Assembly: GCA_029287645.1 (NCBI GenBank)
Contig: JARFQS010000106.1
Coordinates: 1-10,823 of the forward strand
DNA: 10,823 nt
Direction of reading: 5' to 3'
DNA from: Thermoanaerobaculia bacterium
Lineage (GTDB): Bacteria; Acidobacteriota; Thermoanaerobaculia; Multivoradales; JAHEKO01
The position numbers and the translations under genes were made by a program. How positions within the stretch are numbered: position 1 is the stretch's first letter; every line of letters begins with the position of its first letter. Shown in pieces: positions 1,070 to 10,823 of the stretch. The notes beneath the pieces are model-generated. The model searched no databases. It was not told the origin of the DNA and was given only the letters and a program-made list of their open reading frames with translations.

Positions 1070-3085
1070 ATGAGACCTCGGAATCTCATATTCGGATTGT
1101 CCGCTCTACTGCTCGTCGCAAGCCTCGCCGGCAGAGTCGTCGATTCCGTCGAGGCTGGCGGTGGCGACTGGACTCTCGTGGGCTGGAATGACCTGGGAAT
1201 GCACTGCATGGATGCCGACTACGCGGTGTTCTCCATTCTGCCGCCCTTCAATACCATCCAGGCCCACCTGATGGACGAAAACGGGGATCTGGTGACCAGC
1301 CCAGCGGGCGTCTCGGTGACCTATGAGGGAATTGCCGACCCACAAGGCTCGATCAATGTCACCTCGGCCAGTAAGACCAATTTCTGGGACCACGCCCAGG
1401 ATCTCTTTGGTGCTGCCCTGCCCGTCGACGAAGGCTTGGCTGGCAACACCATGCCTGGGGCTGCCAACACGCCGCAGTCCATGCAATGGGAGGCGACCCA
1501 TGACTGGTTCGTCGGCGAGGGCATCCCGATCACCCCTTACGACGACGATGCGAAGAAGAACTACTACCCCATGATGCGCCTCGTGGCACGCGCTGCCGGT
1601 GGGCAGTTGCTGGCGGAGACGGCGATCGTGCTGCCGGTCTCCGATGAGATGGATTGTTCGGCCTGTCATGCCTCCGGCTCGCCCGACGATGCAGAACCCT
1701 TCGGCGGCTGGATCTGGGACGCGGATGCGGAGCGCGACTACCGGCTCAATATTCTCCTGCTCCACGACGACTATCGAGGCAACTCCACAACGTACGCCGA
1801 CGCCCTCGCCACCATGGGCTACAACAGCGGCGGTCTCTATCCCACGGTCGTCACCGACGGTACCTCCGTGCTGTGCGCCGGCTGTCACGGCTCGAACGCC
1901 CTGCCGGGAACCGGTATCGCAGGGATTCCACCGCTGACCAACGCTGTGCACGACCTCCACGCTTTCGTTATCGACCCAACCAACCAAATGACACTCAATT
2001 CGAGCGACAACCGTACAGCCTGCTACCGCTGCCACCCGGGCAGCGAGACCCGGTGCCTGCGAGGCGCCATGGGCAAGGCGGTCGCCGACGACGGCACGCT
2101 CGCCATGCAGTGCCAGGGATGCCACGGCAACATGCTTGCCGTCGGCGATCAGAATCGGATCGGCTGGCTCGACCAGCCCAATTGCCAGAGTTGCCACACG
2201 GGTACCGCTACCGACAATAACGGCCAGATTCGCTACGAATCGGTGTTCGAGCCCAGCGGGGACGTCCGCCAGGCCGTGAACCAGACCTTTGCAACGGATT
2301 CCGACGTTCCGGCAGCTGGGTTCTCGCTCTACCGCTTCTCCTTCGGCCATGGCGGCCTCTCCTGCCTCGCCTGCCACGGTTCGACGCACGCCATCTACCC
2401 GGCCTCGCACCCCAACGACAATATCCAGAACCAGGATCTCCAGGGTCACGAGGGCACATTGGCGGAATGCACCGCCTGCCACGCCGCGAGTCCGAATACC
2501 GTGACCGGAGGTCCCCACGGCCTTCACCCGATCGGCCAGAGCTGGATCGAGGGTCACAAACAGGCGGCGGATCACGACACCACCCCCTGCCAGGACTGCC
2601 ACGGCACCGACTACAAGGGCACCGTGCTCTCCTACTCGCAGGCCGACTGGATCGCCGACGCCGACGACTTCGGGGACAAGCACTTCTGGCGGGGCTTCCG
2701 GATCGGCTGCTATGCCTGCCACAACGGACCCGACAGTGAGGCGCCGAGCCCCAACCATCCGGCTGTGGTTCAGAACGCCTCGGCGGATGCCGATAACGGG
2801 GTTCCAGTGGAGATCCCCCTGGTGGCCACCGACCAGGACGGTAACCCGATGACCTTGCGCATCGTCTCGCAGCCCGCCAACGGCACAGTGGCCCTGAGCG
2901 GTACGACCGCTACCTATTACCCGTTCGACGGCTTCAGCGGCGTCGACACCTTCACGTTCGCCGCTTGGGACGGCTGGACCGACTCGAACCTGGGATCCGT
3001 GATGGTGACGGTCGTGGACGCCAGGATCTTCACCGACGGCTTCGAGTCCGGCAATCTCTCCGCCTGGTCCAGCAGCGTGCCCTGA
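1070..3085 (+). CDS. Secreted nine-haem c-type cytochrome with C-terminal Ig-like domain
   Basis: This 671-residue exported protein has a signal peptide at residues 1-29 (hydrophobic core FGLSALLLVASLAG, likely cleavage after SVEA). A conserved 'GWNDLGMHCMD' block at about 38-48 is, as I recall, typical of a family of environmental multihaem cytochromes. Nine CXXCH motifs start at residues 196, 269, 318, 348, 372, 432, 467, 507 and 547, each expected to bind a covalent haem c. Many extra histidines could be distal ligands. Residues ~565-650 form a bacterial Ig/cadherin-like domain (Big_9 type: 'DADNGVPVEIPL', 'TDQDGNPM', 'YYPFDGFSGVDTFTF'), and the last residues carry the tail 'DGFESGNLSAWSSSVP'. 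No membrane anchor is seen, so it probably acts in the periplasm or on the cell surface as an electron-transfer protein. Start: ATG at 1070 with AAGGGAG at 1058-1064 and a 5-nt spacer. It converges on the kinase gene with a 9-bp gap. The electron partner and haem potentials are unknown. Confidence 0.9.
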   Translation: MRPRNLIFGLSALLLVASLAGRVVDSVEAGGGDWTLVGWNDLGMHCMDADYAVFSILPPFNTIQAHLMDENGDLVTSPAGVSVTYEGIADPQGSINVTSASKTNFWDHAQDLFGAALPVDEGLAGNTMPGAANTPQSMQWEATHDWFVGEGIPITPYDDDAKKNYYPMMRLVARAAGGQLLAETAIVLPVSDEMDCSACHASGSPDDAEPFGGWIWDADAERDYRLNILLLHDDYRGNSTTYADALATMGYNSGGLYPTVVTDGTSVLCAGCHGSNALPGTGIAGIPPLTNAVHDLHAFVIDPTNQMTLNSSDNRTACYRCHPGSETRCLRGAMGKAVADDGTLAMQCQGCHGNMLAVGDQNRIGWLDQPNCQSCHTGTATDNNGQIRYESVFEPSGDVRQAVNQTFATDSDVPAAGFSLYRFSFGHGGLSCLACHGSTHAIYPASHPNDNIQNQDLQGHEGTLAECTACHAASPNTVTGGPHGLHPIGQSWIEGHKQAADHDTTPCQDCHGTDYKGTVLSYSQADWIADADDFGDKHFWRGFRIGCYACHNGPDSEAPSPNHPAVVQNASADADNGVPVEIPLVATDQDGNPMTLRIVSQPANGTVALSGTTATYYPFDGFSGVDTFTFAAWDGWTDSNLGSVMVTVVDARIFTDGFESGNLSAWSSSVP

Positions 3086-3094
3086 AGCCCGGTA

Positions 3095-5746
3095 CTAGCG
3101 GAAGTCGTCGATCAGGACGATGTCGCGGACGCGGCGGCCCTGAGCGATCAGGAGGGTCGAGCCGTCGGGCGAGACATCAAAGTGGAAGATCTCCCCCTCG
3201 CTGAAGTCGGTCAGTTGCCGCGGCTCACCTCCGTCGAGGGGCATCAGAAAGAGGTTTGTGACGCCATCTATGGTCTCGGCGTGGAACAGGCTACCCCCGT
3301 CGGCGCTCCACGGCGACTCGAGCTCGGAGTGGAAATCGTGGGTCTCCACAATCTCGCTGCCGTCGGGAGTGAGAATCCCCGTCTTCCAGAGACTGTCCCC
3401 TTCACCCCGGAAGTGTAGGGCCATGCGGCTCCCGTCGGGCGACCATGATGGGGAATGGCTGAATTCGGTAGGCACTGCTGTCGTCTCGCCGGTAGCGAGA
3501 GATCGCCGCAACATCCTGAAATCGCCCTCGAGAATCCCGTCGAAGAACAACCATTCGCCATCGGGTGAGATCGCCGGACGACCGCCGATCGTGGCGTCGG
3601 GTATGAGGTCCTCGAGTCCGGTACCGTCCAAGCGGATCGACCAGACGCTCAACCGGTCTCCATCCAACGAATCGAAGACGACCCTCTCGCCATCGGGGTG
3701 CAACCACGGCTCCTCCTGAGCGACACCCTGCACCGTAAGGCGCCGGGCATCGCTGCCGTCCGTGCTCATCATCCAGAGGTGCTTCTCCGTTCCCTCGTCG
3801 GCCACATAGATGATCCTGCCGTCCTGGGTCCAGAGCACACCGTCCGCGCCGTCCGCGGTGCCAGTGGTGGTCTCGACTTGTCGTCGCGGGCTCGACCCGT
3901 CAATCGGCTGAACCCAGATCGACGAGTGGCGATTGCCCAGTACGGCCGCCATCCGCTTGCCGTCGGCAGCGAGGCTCACTCCCTGATAGGAATTCAGATC
4001 GTTGGTGATCCGATGGACCTCACCGGATGGATACCGCATCTCGAAGAGCTGCCAGCCGCTGTAGCCATCCTCGAGGGCAATCAAGACCAGGCCCGAGCCA
4101 TCGGGGAGCCAGGCGAGCTCCCATAGCCCTCTCCACGCGCGCTCCGTGATGAGCTGCAGATCGCCTCCCTCTACCGGGACGCCCACCAGCCGTGACCTGA
4201 AATCCCTTGCGTCGCCCTGAGCGACGACCAACAACTCTTCCTTCGGTGACCAGACAGGAGTCCCCATAAAGACTCTGGGCATCTCCAAGGACGTCACCCG
4301 CCTGGCATCACTGCCGTCCAGCCCCGAAACCCAGAGCTCGCTGCCATAACCTCCGCCGAGGCCCTTGAGATAAACGACTCTCGAGCCGTCCGGCGAGAAG
4401 CTGACCCCGGTGGCGATGTCTCCTAGCAGCTTACGGGGTGCTCCACCCAGGGTGGGTACCTGATACAGCTCACCCGGGGCGTCGAACTCCGGTTGTGCGA
4501 CGTAGTAGACATAGTCTCCATCGTTCGAGAAGCGGACATCGCTGTACCAGGTGATGCCGGCACCGACGATCTCGACATCGCTACCCGTGGCAACCTGTTT
4601 GACCCGCAGGGTCCTCTCCTTGCCCTGGTCGTCCGCGTAGGCCACGTACTTGCCATCCGGAGAGATGGCGACGAGCGAGGCGTTGCCGGTGCTCGTCAAG
4701 GGCCGGATCTGCATCGACTCGAAACTCGAAGACCTGCGCGCTACCGGTGCCTCCTCGCGGCCCTTCAGACTCCACAGCCCGAAGCCGAGCCCTAACGCGC
4801 CTACGATCAGGGCACCGGCGACAACCAGTCTCTTCCAGCCACTGTCCGCGGCAGCCGGCAGGCCTGCCTGCCCTACGGGTGTTACTTCTCCGGTGGCGAC
4901 TTCCTCCTCCAGCTCCTCGAGCTCGTTACGAAGGTCCAGAGCTGACTGATACCGCCGATCGGGCTCCTTCTGCAGACAGCGGCGGACGATGCGACCAAGC
5001 TGGCGAGGGAGACGCGTATTGAGATCGGTGACCGAGGTCGGCGTGTCCCGCAGGATCGAGGACAGGACCGACAGGCTGGTGTCGCCGCCGAAGGGGCGCT
5101 GGCCTGTAGCCATCTCGTAGAGGATGATGCCCAGAGAGAAGATGTCGCTTCGGTGGTCGACGGGTTTGCCCTCGGCCTGCTCTGGAGACATGTAGGCAAC
5201 GGTCCCGAGGACTTTGCCCTCCTGGGTCACCGACTGGGTCGGTGCCTCGGCGGGCCCCTCCTCGCCGCTGGCGGTTTCGGCTAGCTTGGCGAGGCCGAAA
5301 TCCAGCACCCGAAGGCGACCATCGTCGCCCATCATGATGTTGTCGGGCTTGAGATCCCGGTGGGTGACACCGTTCTGGTGCGCTGTGCTGACGGCGTCAG
5401 CCAGAGGTGTCGCGAAATCGAAGAATCGGGTCAGTGCGAGGCCTCCCTCGGGAATCAGCTCCGAGAGGGACTTGCCATGCACCATCTCCATGGTGAGGAA
5501 GTGGGTTCCATCCGCCTCTTCGACCGAGTGGATGGTGACGATATTGGGATGATTCAGGGAGGCGACGGCCTTGGCTTCGCGCTCGAAGCGGGCCCGGCGC
5601 TCGCCGTCTCCGGCCAGCTCGGCCGGCAGGATCTTCAGCGCCACCTGGCGGTCGAGCTTGGTGTCCTCGGCCAGATAGACCTCGCCCATGCCACCCTTGC
5701 CCAGCAGTTGGACGATCCGATAGTGACCCAGGGTCTCGCCAATCAC
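3095..5746 (-). CDS. Transmembrane Ser/Thr protein kinase with C-terminal PD40/TolB-type propeller repeats
   Basis: This is an 883-residue PknB-like (Hanks-type) kinase. Residues 8-275 form the kinase domain with all key motifs: glycine loop GKGGMGEV (16-23), ATP lysine K38 in VALKI, alpha-C glutamate near E57, catalytic HRDLKPDN (129-136), DFG (149-151) and 'MSPEQ' (186-190). It should therefore be active. A charged linker is followed by one membrane helix (about 307-327). The remainder, expected outside the cytoplasm, holds twelve 'S-P-D-G'-like repeats (for example ISPDGKYVAY at 361, FSPDGSRVVY, WSPDGSRMAL, VSPDGSTLLI), enough for two six-bladed propellers. Known PD40/TolB repeats bind proteins or ligands, so this is probably a sensor domain. 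Start: GTG at 5746, supported by AGGAGG on the minus strand (about 5754-5759). It is the last gene of the minus-strand cluster, 54 bp after the preceding gene. Targets are unknown. Confidence 0.93.
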   Translation of the reverse strand: MIGETLGHYRIVQLLGKGGMGEVYLAEDTKLDRQVALKILPAELAGDGERRARFEREAKAVASLNHPNIVTIHSVEEADGTHFLTMEMVHGKSLSELIPEGGLALTRFFDFATPLADAVSTAHQNGVTHRDLKPDNIMMGDDGRLRVLDFGLAKLAETASGEEGPAEAPTQSVTQEGKVLGTVAYMSPEQAEGKPVDHRSDIFSLGIILYEMATGQRPFGGDTSLSVLSSILRDTPTSVTDLNTRLPRQLGRIVRRCLQKEPDRRYQSALDLRNELEELEEEVATGEVTPVGQAGLPAAADSGWKRLVVAGALIVGALGLGFGLWSLKGREEAPVARRSSSFESMQIRPLTSTGNASLVAISPDGKYVAYADDQGKERTLRVKQVATGSDVEIVGAGITWYSDVRFSNDGDYVYYVAQPEFDAPGELYQVPTLGGAPRKLLGDIATGVSFSPDGSRVVYLKGLGGGYGSELWVSGLDGSDARRVTSLEMPRVFMGTPVWSPKEELLVVAQGDARDFRSRLVGVPVEGGDLQLITERAWRGLWELAWLPDGSGLVLIALEDGYSGWQLFEMRYPSGEVHRITNDLNSYQGVSLAADGKRMAAVLGNRHSSIWVQPIDGSSPRRQVETTTGTADGADGVLWTQDGRIIYVADEGTEKHLWMMSTDGSDARRLTVQGVAQEEPWLHPDGERVVFDSLDGDRLSVWSIRLDGTGLEDLIPDATIGGRPAISPDGEWLFFDGILEGDFRMLRRSLATGETTAVPTEFSHSPSWSPDGSRMALHFRGEGDSLWKTGILTPDGSEIVETHDFHSELESPWSADGGSLFHAETIDGVTNLFLMPLDGGEPRQLTDFSEGEIFHFDVSPDGSTLLIAQGRRVRDIVLIDDFR

Positions 5747-5800
5747 GATGCCCCCTCCTGCGGTTCTTTGTCGTCTACCAAGATAACAGAGCTTTGAGCG

Positions 5801-6658
5801 TCAGGGCAGCTCGATCGAGAGACGGCTCATGACGCGGCGCTGGCCACGATCCTTGAAGGAGTGATCGAAATCCAACTCGAGAAGCCCTATCGGGACGCCT
5901 GCCTGCCGATTCACTTGGATCTGCAGTCGCTCCACGAAGGTGTCGAGCTCCAGGCGACCGAACAGGATGTCGTCGATCTCCACCCGTGTCACCTTGTCGA
6001 AGTACTCGAGGTGTCGGCTATCGCTAACCGTGCCAATCACCACTGAACCGTCGGAGACCACACTGGCCTGCCCGTCCACGCTCGGCTTCACCTCACGGGT
6101 TACCTTCTCGCCCGCAGCGGTGAGCTCGATGCGTGTTCCCGCTTGCGACGGTAGGAGATAGTAGAGACCGTAGAGCAATACCTCGAGTCGATCTCCCTTG
6201 CGTCGAAACACCGCCTCCATGAAGAGAGGCTCGTTGGAACCAGCTGGGTTCAGAACCTGGTAGTCGCCCCCTTCGAACCTCACCCGCAGCGCTGCGCCCT
6301 TGGAATGCACGAGCACTCGTTCGATCTGGTGCTCTTCCGGATCGAGCTGTGGGTAGATCAGGGGCGCCGTGGAGCCCCAGAACGCTCCTTCCAATCGCCT
6401 ACCGCCGAGGATCGGCGTGACACCGACCAGGTGCTGTTTGTCCGCAGGTCCGTCGTAGTCGATCTCCAGGACCACCTCCTTCCCGGAGTCTAGACGGGCC
6501 AGAATTCGATAGGCCTCGGGCTCGTGCTCCAGTGTCCAGGAAGCGTTGTCACTCCTGAGAATGTCGACCTCGACCGAACTCGATGCAGCCACGAGACCAC
6601 CGACCAGGCACATCTGGAGCAGCGCCAGGCAGGTCTTCACTCTCTGCAATTGCGTCAC
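5801..6658 (-). CDS. Exported beta-rich protein, unknown function
   Basis: This protein of up to 285 residues has an N-terminal signal peptide (VKTCLALLQMCLVGGLVAAS, cleavage probable near residue 25). The mature part alternates hydrophobic and polar residues in strand-like runs (VVLEIDYD, AALRVRFEGG, RLEVLLYGLYYLL, LQIQVNRQ, GLLELDFDHSF), suggesting an all-beta fold such as a sandwich. No cysteines remain after the signal peptide, and no catalytic motif or lipobox is evident. I do not recognise a family. The start is uncertain: GTG at 6658 has no good ribosome-binding site, and GTG at 6640 (residue 7) also keeps the signal peptide. It follows the Rieske-ThDP gene by 24 bp and precedes the kinase gene by 54 bp, consistent with one operon. 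A possible link is that it acts outside the cytoplasm, where the kinase's propeller domain also resides; this is inference from topology only. Confidence 0.78.
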   Translation of the reverse strand: MTQLQRVKTCLALLQMCLVGGLVAASSSVEVDILRSDNASWTLEHEPEAYRILARLDSGKEVVLEIDYDGPADKQHLVGVTPILGGRRLEGAFWGSTAPLIYPQLDPEEHQIERVLVHSKGAALRVRFEGGDYQVLNPAGSNEPLFMEAVFRRKGDRLEVLLYGLYYLLPSQAGTRIELTAAGEKVTREVKPSVDGQASVVSDGSVVIGTVSDSRHLEYFDKVTRVEIDDILFGRLELDTFVERLQIQVNRQAGVPIGLLELDFDHSFKDRGQRRVMSRLSIELP

Positions 6659-6682
6659 GGATCGGATCTCGGGAGAAGTGGG

Positions 6683-8674
6683 CTAGATGAGCTCCGGGTC
6701 GCTCATGATCTCTACCAGCGCAGGGCCGTCGTGGGCCAGCGCTCGCCCGAGTGCATCGTCGAGGTCTGTGCTCTCGTTGACGCGAATGCCCAGAGCGCCA
6801 CACAGCTCCGCGTAGCCGGCAAAGTTCGGGTTGTGGAGATCCGTCTGCCACACGTCCCAGCTGCCGGCCCGCTGTTCTTTGGAGATCTTGCCCAGCTCGC
6901 TGTTGTTGAGCAGGACGTGCGTGATGTTCATGCCGTATTTGACCGCGGTGGTGAGCTCGCCCATGTACTGACCGAAGCCTCCATCGCCCGAGACCGACAC
7001 TACGGGTCGACCCCTGAAGAGGGGGTCTTCCTCCTGGGTGGCCGCCCATGCTCCCATCGCAGCGGGGAGGGCGAACCCGATCGACCCCAGATAGCCGGAC
7101 ATGAGCACCGCTTGACGCCCGCATTCGAAGTAGCGCCCGAAGGAATAGGTATTGTTGCCCACGTCTACGGCGAGAATGGCATCGACGGGCACCTGTCTCG
7201 TCAGCGCGGCAAAGGCGGCAGCAGCAGAGATTCCCCGACCGCGCTCTTCACCGATTCGTCGGGACTTCTCCTCACGCCAGATCTCCCAGCGCTCGGCGAT
7301 CTCGTCGCGCTGGTCCTCAGCATGAACGATGTCGGGTAGAGCTTCGCCGAGCGCCCTCGCTGTGACGCCGATCTCACCCCAGACTGGTACCTCGATCTTG
7401 TGGAACTTGCCCAGCGCCATGGGATCGAAATCGACCTGAATCGTCGGCTTCTTGGGCGTGATGCCCGTGTGGTTGCTGAAGCTGGCACCGAAGACCAACA
7501 GACAGTCCGCCTCGTTCATGAAGTGGCTGGCGATGGGAGTTCCACTACGCCCCAGGACCCCACAACCCAGAGGGTGGTGGTCGGAGATGAGTCCCTTGGC
7601 CTTGAAGGTCGTGATCACCGGGCAGGAAAGCTGTTCCGCCAGCGCGACAATGGACTCCATCTGCGAGCCGGCTCCGTGGCCAACGATGATCACAGGCCGC
7701 TTCGACCCTCCCAGACGCTCGAGAGCTCGATCGAGAGAGTCCGCGGGTGGAGCGATCTCTCTCTCCGTGACCCGTCCCTCGGGAGTCCCGGCCTCCTCGG
7801 CCTCGGGTACCTCGAGAGTCTGCACCTCGTCCGGAAAGATGAGATGGGAAACGCCTCGATTCAGGATGGCGCTCTTGAGGGCCAGGTTGACGAGCTCGGC
7901 GTGCTTGCTGGTCGGCAGAACCGACTGGCTCCACTGCGCCACCTTGCCGAAGGCTGCCGAGAGGTCCACCTCCTGAAAGGCGCCGGGGCCCAGGACCTGG
8001 GTATCCACCTGACCCGTCAGGGCCAGCACCGGGGATCGATCGACATGAGCGTCCCAGAGACCCGTCAGCAGGTTCGTCGCGCCGGGCCCCGCAATCGACA
8101 GGCAGGCCGCCGGTCGGCCGGTGAGCTTGCCATAGGCGGAAGCGGCGAAGGAGGCCGCTCCCTCGTGGCGGATTCCGTAGTAGTTGAGCTGCCCGGTCTC
8201 CGTTTGGCGACGCACCGCATCCGCCAACCCCAGGTTGGAGTGCCCGACCATGCCCCAGACATGACGGATCCCCCAGTTGACCATGGTCTCCACCATGACA
8301 TCGGAGACGGTCGTTGAATGAGCTTCTGTCTCGTCGAACCCGACGTAGATACCGTCGTCACGCACCTCCACCGGATAGGTGGCCACCCCGTCGTCAAAGC
8401 CGGGCGCCTTGCCGGTCAACGGATCGAAATCCCAACCGTGCCAAGGACACCGCAGCAGGCCCTCCTCGATCGAGCCCTCGCCCAGAGGTCCTCCCTGATG
8501 AGGACACTCGTTGTCCAGGGCCGCGTACTGGCCCTCGAAGTGAGTCATGCAGACCGTCTGATTTCGACACGTAACCGCCTGGACCCTTCCCTCGCCGAGC
8601 TCTTCGGGCTCCAAAGCCTTCTCCCAGATCCGATTCTCGGAGGCTTGGCTCGACTTCTTGTCGTTGGCAGCCAT
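6683..8674 (-). CDS. Rieske [2Fe-2S] domain fused to thiamine-pyrophosphate enzyme (pyruvate oxidase/acetolactate synthase type)
   Basis: This is a 663-residue cytoplasmic fusion. Residues ~14-115 are a Rieske ferredoxin domain with both cluster motifs: C57-P-H59 and, 16 residues later, C76-P-W-H79. Residues ~120-663 are a complete three-domain ThDP enzyme. The N-terminal Pyr domain carries the catalytic glutamate E171 (IRHEGAASFAASAYGKLTG) and 'GPGATNLLTGLWDAH'. The middle domain is about 310-450. The C-terminal PP domain has the ThDP/Mg motif GDG (563-565) to NN (590-591). The retained glutamate and 'NNSELGKI' segment favour the PoxB-like/acetolactate synthase branch that acts on 2-oxo acids such as pyruvate; the exact substrate cannot be read from sequence. 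The Rieske domain could take electrons from the ThDP enamine or a bound flavin. Start: ATG at 8674 with AAAGGAG nine nt upstream is preferred over an in-frame GTG at 8749, which would add 25 unstructured residues. The next gene begins 24 bp downstream. Confidence 0.9.
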   Translation of the reverse strand: MAANDKKSSQASENRIWEKALEPEELGEGRVQAVTCRNQTVCMTHFEGQYAALDNECPHQGGPLGEGSIEEGLLRCPWHGWDFDPLTGKAPGFDDGVATYPVEVRDDGIYVGFDETEAHSTTVSDVMVETMVNWGIRHVWGMVGHSNLGLADAVRRQTETGQLNYYGIRHEGAASFAASAYGKLTGRPAACLSIAGPGATNLLTGLWDAHVDRSPVLALTGQVDTQVLGPGAFQEVDLSAAFGKVAQWSQSVLPTSKHAELVNLALKSAILNRGVSHLIFPDEVQTLEVPEAEEAGTPEGRVTEREIAPPADSLDRALERLGGSKRPVIIVGHGAGSQMESIVALAEQLSCPVITTFKAKGLISDHHPLGCGVLGRSGTPIASHFMNEADCLLVFGASFSNHTGITPKKPTIQVDFDPMALGKFHKIEVPVWGEIGVTARALGEALPDIVHAEDQRDEIAERWEIWREEKSRRIGEERGRGISAAAAFAALTRQVPVDAILAVDVGNNTYSFGRYFECGRQAVLMSGYLGSIGFALPAAMGAWAATQEEDPLFRGRPVVSVSGDGGFGQYMGELTTAVKYGMNITHVLLNNSELGKISKEQRAGSWDVWQTDLHNPNFAGYAELCGALGIRVNESTDLDDALGRALAHDGPALVEIMSDPELI

Positions 8675-8683
8675 GAATGCAGG

Positions 8684-8690
8684 CTCCTTT
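8684..8690 (-). promoter_or_regulatory. Ribosome-binding site deciding the Rieske-ThDP start
   Basis: AAAGGAG on the minus strand with a 9-nt spacer to ATG at 8674. The GTG at 8749 has no comparable site. The leader from 8675 to 8826 (152 bp) otherwise shows no clear promoter or terminator. Confidence 0.65.
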
Positions 8691-8826
8691 CCCTCACGAG
8701 GAGAAGTGTCGTACCCCGTTGGAGACACAGAGATCGCTGTCCGACTCACCGGGGCGTCGGGTTCGACTCAGCGACGAAAGTGGAAATGAGTCTAGCTCAG
8801 GTGGAAGGCAAATATTCGCGACCCGT

Positions 8827-9105
8827 TCAGGGCTCGATGCCGAAATCCTCGGCGGGAACGCCGACCTGCAGACACAGAGTTCGGATGTCGGACGGCTCCA
8901 GCTCCTCTCGACGAGTGACACCTGCGAAATGGAGACCGTTGCGACGAATGGTGATACCGAACTCGCGCTCCAGGCGCGTGATGAACTCACCGAACGTAGG
9001 TCGCTTCCAACCTCTGGGCCGCGGCTGAATGTCCCTCGGAAGAAGCGGAATCTCCTCCCGGGCGGAATACCGAGCCCAGATCTCTAGCTGGGATCCATGT
9101 TTCAT
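8827..9105 (-). CDS. Small protein, faintly HicA-like, unknown function
   Basis: This is a 92-residue protein if started at ATG 9105, or 109 residues from an in-frame TTG at 9156. It lies between the two Rieske fusion genes. Codon use is GC-rich in third positions and the sequence looks real. The C-terminal half (residues ~37-90: 'TFGEFITRLEREFGITIRRNGLHF' split by a turn, then 'ELEPSDIRTLCLQVGVPAEDF') resembles the short helix-strand-GxH-strand-helix layout of HicA/YcfA-type RNA-binding proteins, where the histidine after the glycine is catalytic (here H59). No HicB-like partner is adjacent, and the strand after the histidine is shorter than usual, so a toxin role is doubtful. Neither start has a good ribosome-binding site; the TTG lies inside a hairpin, so I prefer the ATG. 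Its position suggests translation with the operon and perhaps a regulatory or assembly role for the redox enzymes, which is inference. Confidence 0.6.
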   Translation of the reverse strand: MKHGSQLEIWARYSAREEIPLLPRDIQPRPRGWKRPTFGEFITRLEREFGITIRRNGLHFAGVTRREELEPSDIRTLCLQVGVPAEDFGIEP

Positions 9106-9138
9106 GCCCAGATTAGACGAGACGACCGTGACGCTGAT

Positions 9139-9162
9139 ACCCCTTTCCCGTAACAAAGGGGT
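9139..9162 (-). other. Perfect inverted repeat at the 3' end of the Rieske-GltB-like gene
   Basis: ACCCCTTT and AAAGGGGT form a perfect 8-bp stem with an 8-nt loop. On the transcribed minus strand it starts at the last base of the TAA stop of the upstream gene. A competing 5-bp stem, GTAAC/GTTAC (9150-9165, 6-nt loop), overlaps it, so the two cannot form together. There is no following U-run, so it is not a standard Rho-independent terminator. It may be an intercistronic RNA processing, stability or attenuation element. Confidence 0.5.
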
Positions 9163-10796
9163 TACACCCCCTCATCCTCGCAGGGCTGTACGACGCCGCC
9201 GAAGTCGACCCCGGTCAGCAACGCGACGTCCTGCTTCCAGGTCGTCAGGTCCCCGATCCCGAACTCATTCAGATGCGTGTGGCCGCAGGCGCGCGCCAGA
9301 AGCTTCATCAGCTCCACCGCAGCCCCGAAAAACCTCGCTAGCCGCTCCGCCGCCTCGTCCACTGGTAGTCGGGCTCTTAGGTGCTCCTTCTGAGTCGCAA
9401 TGCCTACGGGGCAGTTATTGGTGTGGCAAGCTCGCATCCCCAGACAGCCGATGGCCTGCAAAGCAGCGTTTGAAACCGCCACTCCGTCTGCACCCAACGC
9501 CAGGGCCTTGGCGAAATCGGCCGGGGTTCTCAAGCCCCCCGTGATAATCAAGGTGACTTCATCGCTCTTCTCGCGCTCGTCTAGGTGGCGGCGGGCCCGA
9601 GCCAGGGCCGGTAGCGTAGGCACGGAGATGTTGTCCCTGAAGATCAGGGGGGCCGCGCCTGTGGCACCTCCACGGCCGTCGAGGATCACGTAGTCGACTC
9701 CGATCTCCAGCGCCGCATCCAGGTCCTCCTCGATGTGCTGCGCGGAGAGCTTGAAACCGACAGGAATGCCTCCGGTCGCTTCCCGCACCTCGTTGGCGAA
9801 CTCCCGAAAGTCGTCGAGGCTGTCCCAATCGGGGAAACGAGCCGGTGAGATCGCCGATTCGCCCTCTTCGAGATCGCGTACCTCGGCGATCTTGCCCTGC
9901 ACCTTCGAGCCCGGGAGATGACCCCCGGTGCCTGTCTTGGCTCCCTGCCCACCCTTGAAGTGAAACGCCTGCACCCGCGCGAGCTTGTCCATGGAGAATC
10001 CAAAGCGGGCCGAGGCCAGCTCGTAGAAGTAGCGGGTGTTGGCCTCCTGCTCCTCGGGGAGCATGCCTCCCTCTCCCGAACAGATGCCGGTACCGGCCAG
10101 CTCCGCTCCTTTCGCCAGCGCCACCTTGGCCTCGAAGGAAAGCGCTCCAAAACTCATATCCGACACGAAGATCGGGATGGATAGCTCCAGGGGCCTCTTG
10201 GCTCCCGGGCCGATGACGAGATCCGTTCCTACCGGAACCTCGTCGAGCTTGGGTAGGCGGGCGAGCTGCGCCGTGACGAACTGGAGGTCCTCCCAGCCCG
10301 GCAGCTCGGTCCGGGGTACACCCATGGCGGAGACCGGGCCATGATGGCCAACCTTCTCGAGACCGCCACCAGCGAGCTGACGGATGAGCCGCACATGGGG
10401 CTCGAGCGACGTACCGTGGTGATCCTGGTAGGCCCCCTGGTAGCTCTTGCGGTCGAAAGCCTGTGGGTTGCGACGCTCCCATGCGGAGATCTCGTCCGCG
10501 TCGACCCAGACACCGTCCTCCTCGACCCAGGCTTCGAACTTCTGCAGACACTCCTTCGGGTTGTAGGAGCTGATTCCGGAGCGAACCTGGTAATCCCAGG
10601 AGTGAACCCCACAGATGAGATCCTCACCCCGGACGAATCCGTCGGACATGAGAGCACCACGATGCAGGCAGCGCCCGTAGAGCACCGACACGTCGTCGTC
10701 CATGCGGACCACCACGAGATCGACCCCAGCAACCAGGGCATGGGTTGGCTTCCGATCCTCCAGCTGACTCCAAACCGCGACTTGCACTCTCTTCAT
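9162..10796 (-). CDS. Rieske [2Fe-2S] domain fused to glutamate synthase-like FMN/[3Fe-4S] domain
   Basis: This is a 544-residue cytoplasmic fusion. Residues ~1-105 form a Rieske domain: C43-L-H45, then 16 residues, then C62-G-V-H65. Residues ~150-520 match the FMN-binding synthase core of glutamate synthase large subunit (GltB). Visible landmarks are 'SDMSFGALS' (212-220), 'GEGG' (241-244), 'GGQGAKTGTGGHLPG' (282-296), 'ISPARFPDWDSLDDF' (316-330), 'LDGRGGATGAAP' (372-383), 'TGGLRTPADF' (419-428) and the [3Fe-4S] cysteines C451, C457 and C462 in the CX5CX4C pattern followed by PVGIATQ. It lacks the N-terminal glutaminase domain and the C-terminal GXGXG helix of true GltB. It therefore cannot use glutamine by the usual route and may act on another amino- or oxo-compound, with the Rieske cluster serving as a built-in ferredoxin. 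Start: ATG 10796 with AGGAGGT on the minus strand (10804-10810), 7-nt spacer. It is the first gene of the cluster visible here. Confidence 0.9.
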   Translation of the reverse strand: MKRVQVAVWSQLEDRKPTHALVAGVDLVVVRMDDDVSVLYGRCLHRGALMSDGFVRGEDLICGVHSWDYQVRSGISSYNPKECLQKFEAWVEEDGVWVDADEISAWERRNPQAFDRKSYQGAYQDHHGTSLEPHVRLIRQLAGGGLEKVGHHGPVSAMGVPRTELPGWEDLQFVTAQLARLPKLDEVPVGTDLVIGPGAKRPLELSIPIFVSDMSFGALSFEAKVALAKGAELAGTGICSGEGGMLPEEQEANTRYFYELASARFGFSMDKLARVQAFHFKGGQGAKTGTGGHLPGSKVQGKIAEVRDLEEGESAISPARFPDWDSLDDFREFANEVREATGGIPVGFKLSAQHIEEDLDAALEIGVDYVILDGRGGATGAAPLIFRDNISVPTLPALARARRHLDEREKSDEVTLIITGGLRTPADFAKALALGADGVAVSNAALQAIGCLGMRACHTNNCPVGIATQKEHLRARLPVDEAAERLARFFGAAVELMKLLARACGHTHLNEFGIGDLTTWKQDVALLTGVDFGGVVQPCEDEGV

Positions 10797-10803
10797 CGGT
10801 GCG

Positions 10804-10810
10804 ACCTCCT
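10804..10810 (-). promoter_or_regulatory. Strong ribosome-binding site of the Rieske-GltB-like gene
   Basis: A perfect AGGAGGT on the minus strand, 7 nt before ATG at 10796. Any promoter for the cluster lies beyond the right edge of the window. Confidence 0.75.
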
Positions 10811-10823
10811 GACTTCCGAGTGT

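Follow-up and report, generated by a model that had tools for sequence, protein, structure and literature searches.

The question raised by this locus is why two catalytically unrelated enzymes, a glutamate synthase-like (GltB-like) flavin mononucleotide (FMN) enzyme and a pyruvate oxidase-like thiamine diphosphate (ThDP) enzyme, should each carry an N-terminal Rieske [2Fe-2S] domain and sit next to each other. The window, the whole stretch of 10,823 nucleotides analysed here, is one contig (C398) of a 3.1-Mb draft genome of a Thermoanaerobaculia bacterium, assembled in 638 contigs and approximately 70% complete. The original prediction, made from the letters alone, had proposed that the two Rieske domains were recruited independently and that the two enzymes share an electron route. 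We found that the two genes are inherited together across several bacterial phyla and on plasmids of haloarchaea, and that the partnership follows the Rieske form of the GltB-like protein. Tentatively, and at somewhat less than even chances, we read the pair as central to an accessory redox module that is widespread and moves horizontally, in which PoxB-like and GltB-like enzymes would work on one low-potential Rieske route.

The Rieske-GltB gene (9162..10796, minus strand; 544 aa) encodes a Rieske domain (10557..10787, minus strand; residues 4-80) followed by a glutamate synthase-type FMN/[3Fe-4S] core, whose Glu_synthase domain, the FMN barrel, lies at 9282..10202 (minus strand; residues 199-505). 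The Pfam scores were 43.9 bits for Rieske (PF00355, cut-off 20.3) and 304.6 bits for Glu_synthase (PF01645), with FMN_dh as the only further match. The glutaminase, central, and C-terminal domains of GltB were not found by Pfam, nor was CDGSH (PF09360), and no NCBIfam model reached its cut-off among the matches listed. In the alignment of the homologues, the Rieske ligands (C43-L-H45 / C62-G-V-H65) are conserved in 200 of the 201 rows, the exception being a second, Rieske-less GltB-like copy in locus L037, and the [3Fe-4S] motif C-x5-C-x4-C (C451, C457, and C462, within the Glu_synthase domain) is conserved in all of them. We take residues E903, K966, Q978, K972, and R992 of the Synechocystis ferredoxin-dependent glutamate synthase (Fd-GltS) to form the 2-oxoglutarate/FMN site: the positions aligned with E903, K966, K972, and R992 are kept in 201, 200, 201, and 200 rows, respectively, while that of Q978 is His in 200 rows. 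The predicted structure (pLDDT 79.7, with cofactor loops of low confidence) has glutamate synthases as its best fold matches, with Fd-GltS at the top.

The Rieske-ThDP gene lies on the same strand, 487 bp from the first one. Its long frame (688 aa) opens at a GTG at position 8749, but the start is most likely Met26 (8674), because the relatives listed (120 matches) measure 646-673 aa; the gene would thus span 6683..8674 (minus strand; 663 aa). In the numbering of the 688-aa frame, the Rieske domain covers residues 42-116 (8402..8626, minus strand), and the TPP_enzyme_N, _M, and _C domains of this PoxB/AHAS-type enzyme cover residues 147-681 (6707..8311, minus strand), including the catalytic E196, the GDG motif, and K621. 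Pfam gave 54.4 bits for Rieske (PF00355, cut-off 20.3) and 112.6, 113, and 117 for the three TPP domains; among the NCBIfam matches listed (best 25 of 57), no model reached its cut-off. The Rieske ligands (C82-P-H84 / C101-P-W-H104) are conserved in 140 of the 144 alignment rows, the other four being a split frame with a missing N-terminus (L050) and distant ThDP proteins pulled in by clustering (L031, L037, and L072). The catalytic Glu is present in all 144 rows and the Asp of the GDG motif in 143.

The predicted model of the ThDP protein (pLDDT 88.7) has E. coli PoxB and C. glutamicum PQO as best fold matches, and AHAS and 2-hydroxyacyl-CoA lyases are also among its close structural matches. 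The alignment to PoxB stops at PoxB residue 527 of 572, and the ThDP protein terminates five residues later: judging from this alignment, the C-terminal segment of PoxB, which has a membrane and lipid-activation role, is missing. The protein has a TPP_enzyme_M middle domain, and its nearest relatives bind flavin adenine dinucleotide (FAD), which the protein itself may also hold there. The position of L. plantarum POX F479, presumably a substrate-site Phe, is Lys in 139 of the 144 rows. We infer a PoxB-like 2-oxo acid dehydrogenase, acting on pyruvate or on a more polar 2-oxo acid, since a conserved Lys replaces the Phe of POX.

Both fusions thus proved real, with open frames and with both domains of each protein above the Pfam curated cut-offs, and the intact CXH/CX2H ligands that had been predicted are present in both and conserved in the homologues, at the frequencies given above. 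The two Rieske domains share 22% identity over 77 aa, so a recent duplication of one module, which the original prediction had already argued against, is rejected. Independent recruitment is supported by this low identity together with the finding, described below, that CDGSH domains replace the Rieske on the same GltB core elsewhere. The known settings of Rieske domains are the bc1/b6f complexes and oxygenase chains. The motifs of the bc1 Rieske protein (CTHLGC/CPCHGS) are absent from both domains, for which low potentials would be expected since they lack these motifs. The mononuclear-iron catalytic domain of Rieske non-heme iron oxygenases was not found by Pfam in either protein.

We then looked at how often the two fusions travel together. 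At least 8000 relatives of each are present in the protein database, and all the 120 matches listed for each have the same architecture; several of the nearest homologues are Thermoanaerobaculia. Gene neighbourhoods were compared on the best 80 of 566 confirmed Rieske-GltB loci. A Rieske-ThDP match (at least 60% identity) was found in the flank of 22 of these loci, downstream in 20 and upstream in two, on the same strand in 21, and with 130 bp or less between the two matches in 13. When only loci flanked by 3 kb or more on each side are considered, 16/49 have it. The paired loci include Gammaproteobacteria, Burkholderiales, Acidobacteriota (among them Acanthopleuribacter pedis, L043), Gemmatimonadota, Planctomycetota, Nitrospirales, Deltaproteobacteria, Actinomycetes, and one cyanobacterial metagenome-assembled genome. 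The adjacency is therefore not limited to a single genome, and an assembly or single-genome oddity is rejected by these 80 loci and by the three group samples presented below. At the level of whole genomes, Rieske-ThDP was present in 37 of the 79 genomes selected for Rieske-GltB (L078 being outside this count), and in some genomes carrying both, the two genes are on different contigs. The distances of the two proteins are correlated (Mantel r 0.69, p 1e-4, 26 loci). Furthermore, at least 15 largest-contig sizes occur in both lists of relatives (e.g., 10062, 30896, 40294, and 3986945 bases), which suggests further same-contig pairs. Strains with both genes include Acanthopleuribacter pedis KCTC 12899, Halorarius halobius ZY10, and Halorubrum salinarum RHB-C.

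Co-occurrence was measured in samples of three groups that had not been selected for the pair, with a match threshold of E <= 1e-150; only part of the first-look candidates was scored (down to 3 or 4 per genome for the Planctomycetota), so absences are weak. The Acidobacteriota sample (149 genomes) included seven genomes with Rieske-GltB, ten with Rieske-ThDP, and five with both, and in all five the genes are adjacent (four within 50 bp, and the window at 487 bp). The Gammaproteobacteria sample (229 genomes), which was centred on a genome known to carry both and included G177 and G169, already known from the loci, gave 10, 4, and 4, with three pairs within 1 kb. The Planctomycetota sample (294 genomes) gave 20 (one partial), 11, and 10, with five pairs within 1.3 kb. 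Once the query genome and the centres of two samples (G180 and G181) were excluded, and with the partial match of G487 counted as Rieske-GltB, the pooled 669 genomes comprised 34 with Rieske-GltB and 22 with Rieske-ThDP; 16 carried both, where 1.12 were expected (Fisher p 2e-18, uncorrected for kinship). One Acidobacteriota genus (L085, L086, and L152-L154) carries Rieske-ThDP and no detected Rieske-GltB in all five sampled genomes; there, the neighbours of Rieske-ThDP are a TonB receptor and two proteins that resemble a 3-keto-disaccharide hydrolase and a penicillin amidase.

Among 72,556 plasmid records, classed by match coverage, Rieske-GltB was found in three (all haloarchaeal) and Rieske-ThDP in five (four haloarchaeal and one from Mycobacteroides). 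All three Rieske-GltB plasmids also have Rieske-ThDP, approximately 1.4, 4, and 17 kb away, and Rieske-ThDP was not found on the four plasmids with a Rieske-less GltB form (Vibrio, Photobacterium, and Pseudoalteromonas).

The Rieske-less form provides a comparison. Some genomes have this GltB core (62-72% identical) with two CDGSH domains in place of the Rieske: PF09360 matched in two stretches each in L081 and L082, and the CDGSH motif occurs twice in all the 22 Rieske-less GltB proteins inspected, which represent 22 of the 33 Rieske-less genomes counted below. Across the three samples, Rieske-ThDP is present in 19/37 genomes with Rieske-GltB and in 1/33 genomes with the Rieske-less form only (the one being G472); therefore, the partnership follows the Rieske form. 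The 33 Rieske-less genomes, classed by match start, are 27 Gammaproteobacteria, 3 Acidobacteriota, and 3 Planctomycetota; G283 (a partial match with the N-terminus missing and no Rieske-ThDP) was dropped from this count, and G275, which has both forms, was counted as Rieske. This co-inheritance is the strongest sign we have, although still a hint, that the Rieske domain matters to the link. In 20 CDGSH-GltB regions, none of the proteins that accompany the Rieske form (the ThDP enzyme, the membrane Rieske protein, the DUF5996-type protein, and the antiporter) was seen. The exchange of Rieske for CDGSH on one core also says that the N-terminal domain is probably a working [2Fe-2S] module. The CDGSH-GltB form (L081, L082, and L125-L144) is commoner than the Rieske form in the Gammaproteobacteria sample. 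Combinations of CDGSH with Glu_synthase (class II CDGSH), and of CDGSH with Rieske, are reported in PMC5859297.

How could such a pair work? In the redox module that we tentatively favour, the ThDP protein, without the membrane segment of PoxB, would pass electrons singly, probably from FAD, to its own Rieske cluster. Rieske-GltB would be a stand-alone GltS-type FMN enzyme in which the Rieske feeds the [3Fe-4S]/FMN centres, standing in for the external ferredoxin of Fd-GltS or for the beta subunit of the NADPH-dependent enzyme; it would reduce an imine or a 2-oxo acid, or run in reverse. Both Rieske domains would meet one shared low-potential carrier, or each other. The predicted electron sharing gains indirect support, as co-inheritance tracks the Rieske form and not the Rieske-less one, but the genes also occur apart. 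The original model, in which the ThDP enzyme would oxidise a 2-oxo acid and the GltB-like enzyme might take part in an amination, is a plausible hypothesis that can be tested.

A third Rieske fusion could be involved in some genomes: cluster 2, of which two members were identified, is a ferric-reductase-like membrane protein that likewise carries a Rieske domain. It occurs at 10/80 loci, four of them paired, and also in L088 and L090, both paired, and could connect the route to the quinone pool. The Rieske domain of the L014 membrane protein shares 37% identity with the one in the ThDP protein and 22% with the one in the GltB protein. The membrane protein stands beside Rieske-GltB in L014 (4844-5977), L088 (9616-11118), and L062 (2110-3921), often with uncharacterised proteins of clusters 7 and 8. 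More doubtful than the module itself is the wider proposal that at least three unrelated proteins (the GltB-like and PoxB-like enzymes and the ferric-reductase-like membrane haem protein) independently acquired a Rieske domain. Electrons would then pass between the quinone pool, the oxidation of 2-oxo acids, and reductive amination (or the opposite reaction) in a system spread across bacterial phyla and haloarchaea.

DUF5996-type proteins also recur between or beside the two fusions (e.g., L026 9627-10469). They are present at 11/22 paired loci (clusters 3 and 6, one member examined per cluster), and the cluster 6 member, which has no Pfam match, resembles that of cluster 3 (DUF5996) with 36% identity over 96 aa. 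In the Gammaproteobacteria sample, DUF5996 is found in 17/229 genomes, including all four with Rieske-ThDP, and in the window's genome, its gene is on another contig. The name DUF5996 was not found in the open-licence literature searched.

Several results weigh against a shared Rieske route. Rieske-ThDP was not detected in 42 of the 79 Rieske-GltB genomes, nor Rieske-GltB in 6 of the 25 Rieske-ThDP genomes of the three samples, five of these six being the Acidobacteriota genus mentioned above; because each occurs without the detected other, neither fusion is an obligatory subunit of the other. When the centre, G177, and G169 are removed from the Gammaproteobacteria, both genes remain together in 1/226 genomes (p 0.03), and the Mantel correlation was computed without a species-tree control. 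On the protein side, the GltB-like model has low confidence in the loop holding the [3Fe-4S] motif, and 2-oxoglutarate is unsure as a substrate because the position of Q978 is His here. A search of the window's own genome, whose assembly is approximately 70% complete, did not turn up the membrane Rieske protein. Lastly, conserved cation/proton antiporter and DUF5996 neighbours point to ion or pH stress as much as to a redox pathway.

This last point leads to the rival that survives best, which we nonetheless regard as rather unlikely: the two genes could belong independently to a single regulon for ion, pH, CO2, or electrophile stress, with no sharing of electrons. The GltB-like protein would make glutamate or a related amino acid as a counter-ion, the ThDP enzyme would remove a 2-oxo acid or a reactive carbonyl, antiporters, K+ channels, and carbonic anhydrase would adjust ions and pH, and each Rieske domain would meet a general cellular electron carrier. 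Indeed, a Na_H_Exchanger-type antiporter (cluster 4; one member identified) is present at 9/80 loci, 6/22 of the paired ones, and also in L145, L151, L156, and L157, in the last three of which it lies beside or near the ThDP gene with GltB located elsewhere. In Halorarius, an annotated antiporter and a K+ channel lie between the two fusions; on the Mycobacteroides plasmid, an annotated antiporter and a flavodoxin-family protein lie a few kb from the ThDP gene, and GltB was not found on the record. This flavodoxin-family protein (L171 4265-4981) is 70% identical to one in L157 (9596-10342), both being near an antiporter and Rieske-ThDP. Flavodoxins near antiporters recall KefF/KefG, found beside K+/H+ antiporters. 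The same explanation would account for an alpha carbonic anhydrase in L059, L062, and L078 and for the malic enzyme of L026 and its relatives in L039, L147, and L157. However, a stress regulon alone leaves unexplained both the co-inheritance with the Rieske form only and the presence of a Rieske domain on both proteins.

It is improbable that the ThDP enzyme is instead a non-redox, AHAS-like carboligase or decarboxylase, with the Rieske domain as a redox or oxygen sensor switching its activity and the GltB-like protein perhaps working likewise. AHAS holds FAD without net redox, and the AHAS and 2-hydroxyacyl-CoA lyase structures matched by the model would fit this idea; conversely, the top matches in both sequence and fold are redox enzymes (PoxB and PQO), a GltB-type core is inherently a redox unit, and electron transfer is favoured by the exchange of Rieske for CDGSH. 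Very unlikely, finally, is mere hitchhiking in mobile accessory islands or plasmids without a functional link, since the patchy distribution of both genes within phyla and their presence on haloarchaeal plasmids (and of the ThDP gene on a mycobacterial one) are outweighed by the repeated tight adjacency and shared strand in many phyla and by co-occurrence also where the genes sit on different contigs.

Judged from titles and the openings of abstracts, neither Rieske fusion is the subject of a paper in the open-licence literature searched (subscription papers and preprints were outside its scope). Here, the Rieske domain appears as a plug-in on enzymes of central metabolism. If the electron route of the favoured module is true, it would be a new link of 2-oxo acid oxidation to amino-group chemistry, and it would give a function that can be tested to many genes annotated as "glutamate synthase-related protein" and "thiamine pyrophosphate-binding protein". 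The named strains with both genes make bench study possible.

The rest of the window adds context. The small gene predicted between the fusions is present (8827..9105, minus strand; 92 aa from an ATG, with a TTG frame to 9156), but a search of 5.8 billion proteins retained 6 proteins among 23 candidates, including the window's own cluster, and relatives were absent from the 80 Rieske-GltB loci and from the plasmids searched. It is thus rejected as a component of the system and, from its distribution, looks lineage-specific and outside the conserved pair. Upstream of the GltB-like gene, the contig continues for 27 bp; in 5700-10823, no promoter-like sites were found, and terminator-like sites were at chance level only. 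Downstream of the pair, 3095-5746 (minus strand) encodes an 883-aa Ser/Thr protein kinase with a PD40/WD40-like propeller. The 671-aa protein at 1070-3085 (plus strand) is likely a multihaem cytochrome: it has approximately nine CxxCH haem motifs and stretches resembling cytochrome c7/MtrC, and a bacterial Ig-like domain lies close to its C-terminus.

Compared with known systems, the ThDP protein has the three-domain ThDP core in common with pyruvate:quinone oxidoreductase and pyruvate oxidase (E. coli PoxB, 3EY9; C. glutamicum PQO, 9EV3-9EV6; L. plantarum POX), at 24-29% identity and with PoxB as its top match, and differs in the N-terminal Rieske, the missing C-terminal segment, and the Lys in place of F479. 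The GltB-like protein has the FMN barrel, the [3Fe-4S] cysteines, and the equivalents of E903, K966, K972, and R992 in common with ferredoxin- or NADPH-dependent glutamate synthases, but an N-terminal Rieske replaces their glutaminase, central, and C-terminal domains, and Q978 is His. Its Rieske domain weakly matches soluble Rieske-type ferredoxins (those of biphenyl, anthranilate, and phenylpropionate dioxygenases, and NirD); here, however, the Rieske is fused to GltB-like and ThDP enzymes with no oxygenase domain, and neither fusion has the C-terminal mononuclear iron domain of Rieske non-heme iron oxygenases. Also close are the CDGSH-Glu_synthase proteins (PMC5859297), which have the same GltB core and likewise an N-terminal [2Fe-2S] module. 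They differ in having two CDGSH domains (3Cys-1His) instead of one Rieske (2Cys-2His), and in our samples a Rieske-ThDP partner was present in one of the 33 genomes with the Rieske-less form only.

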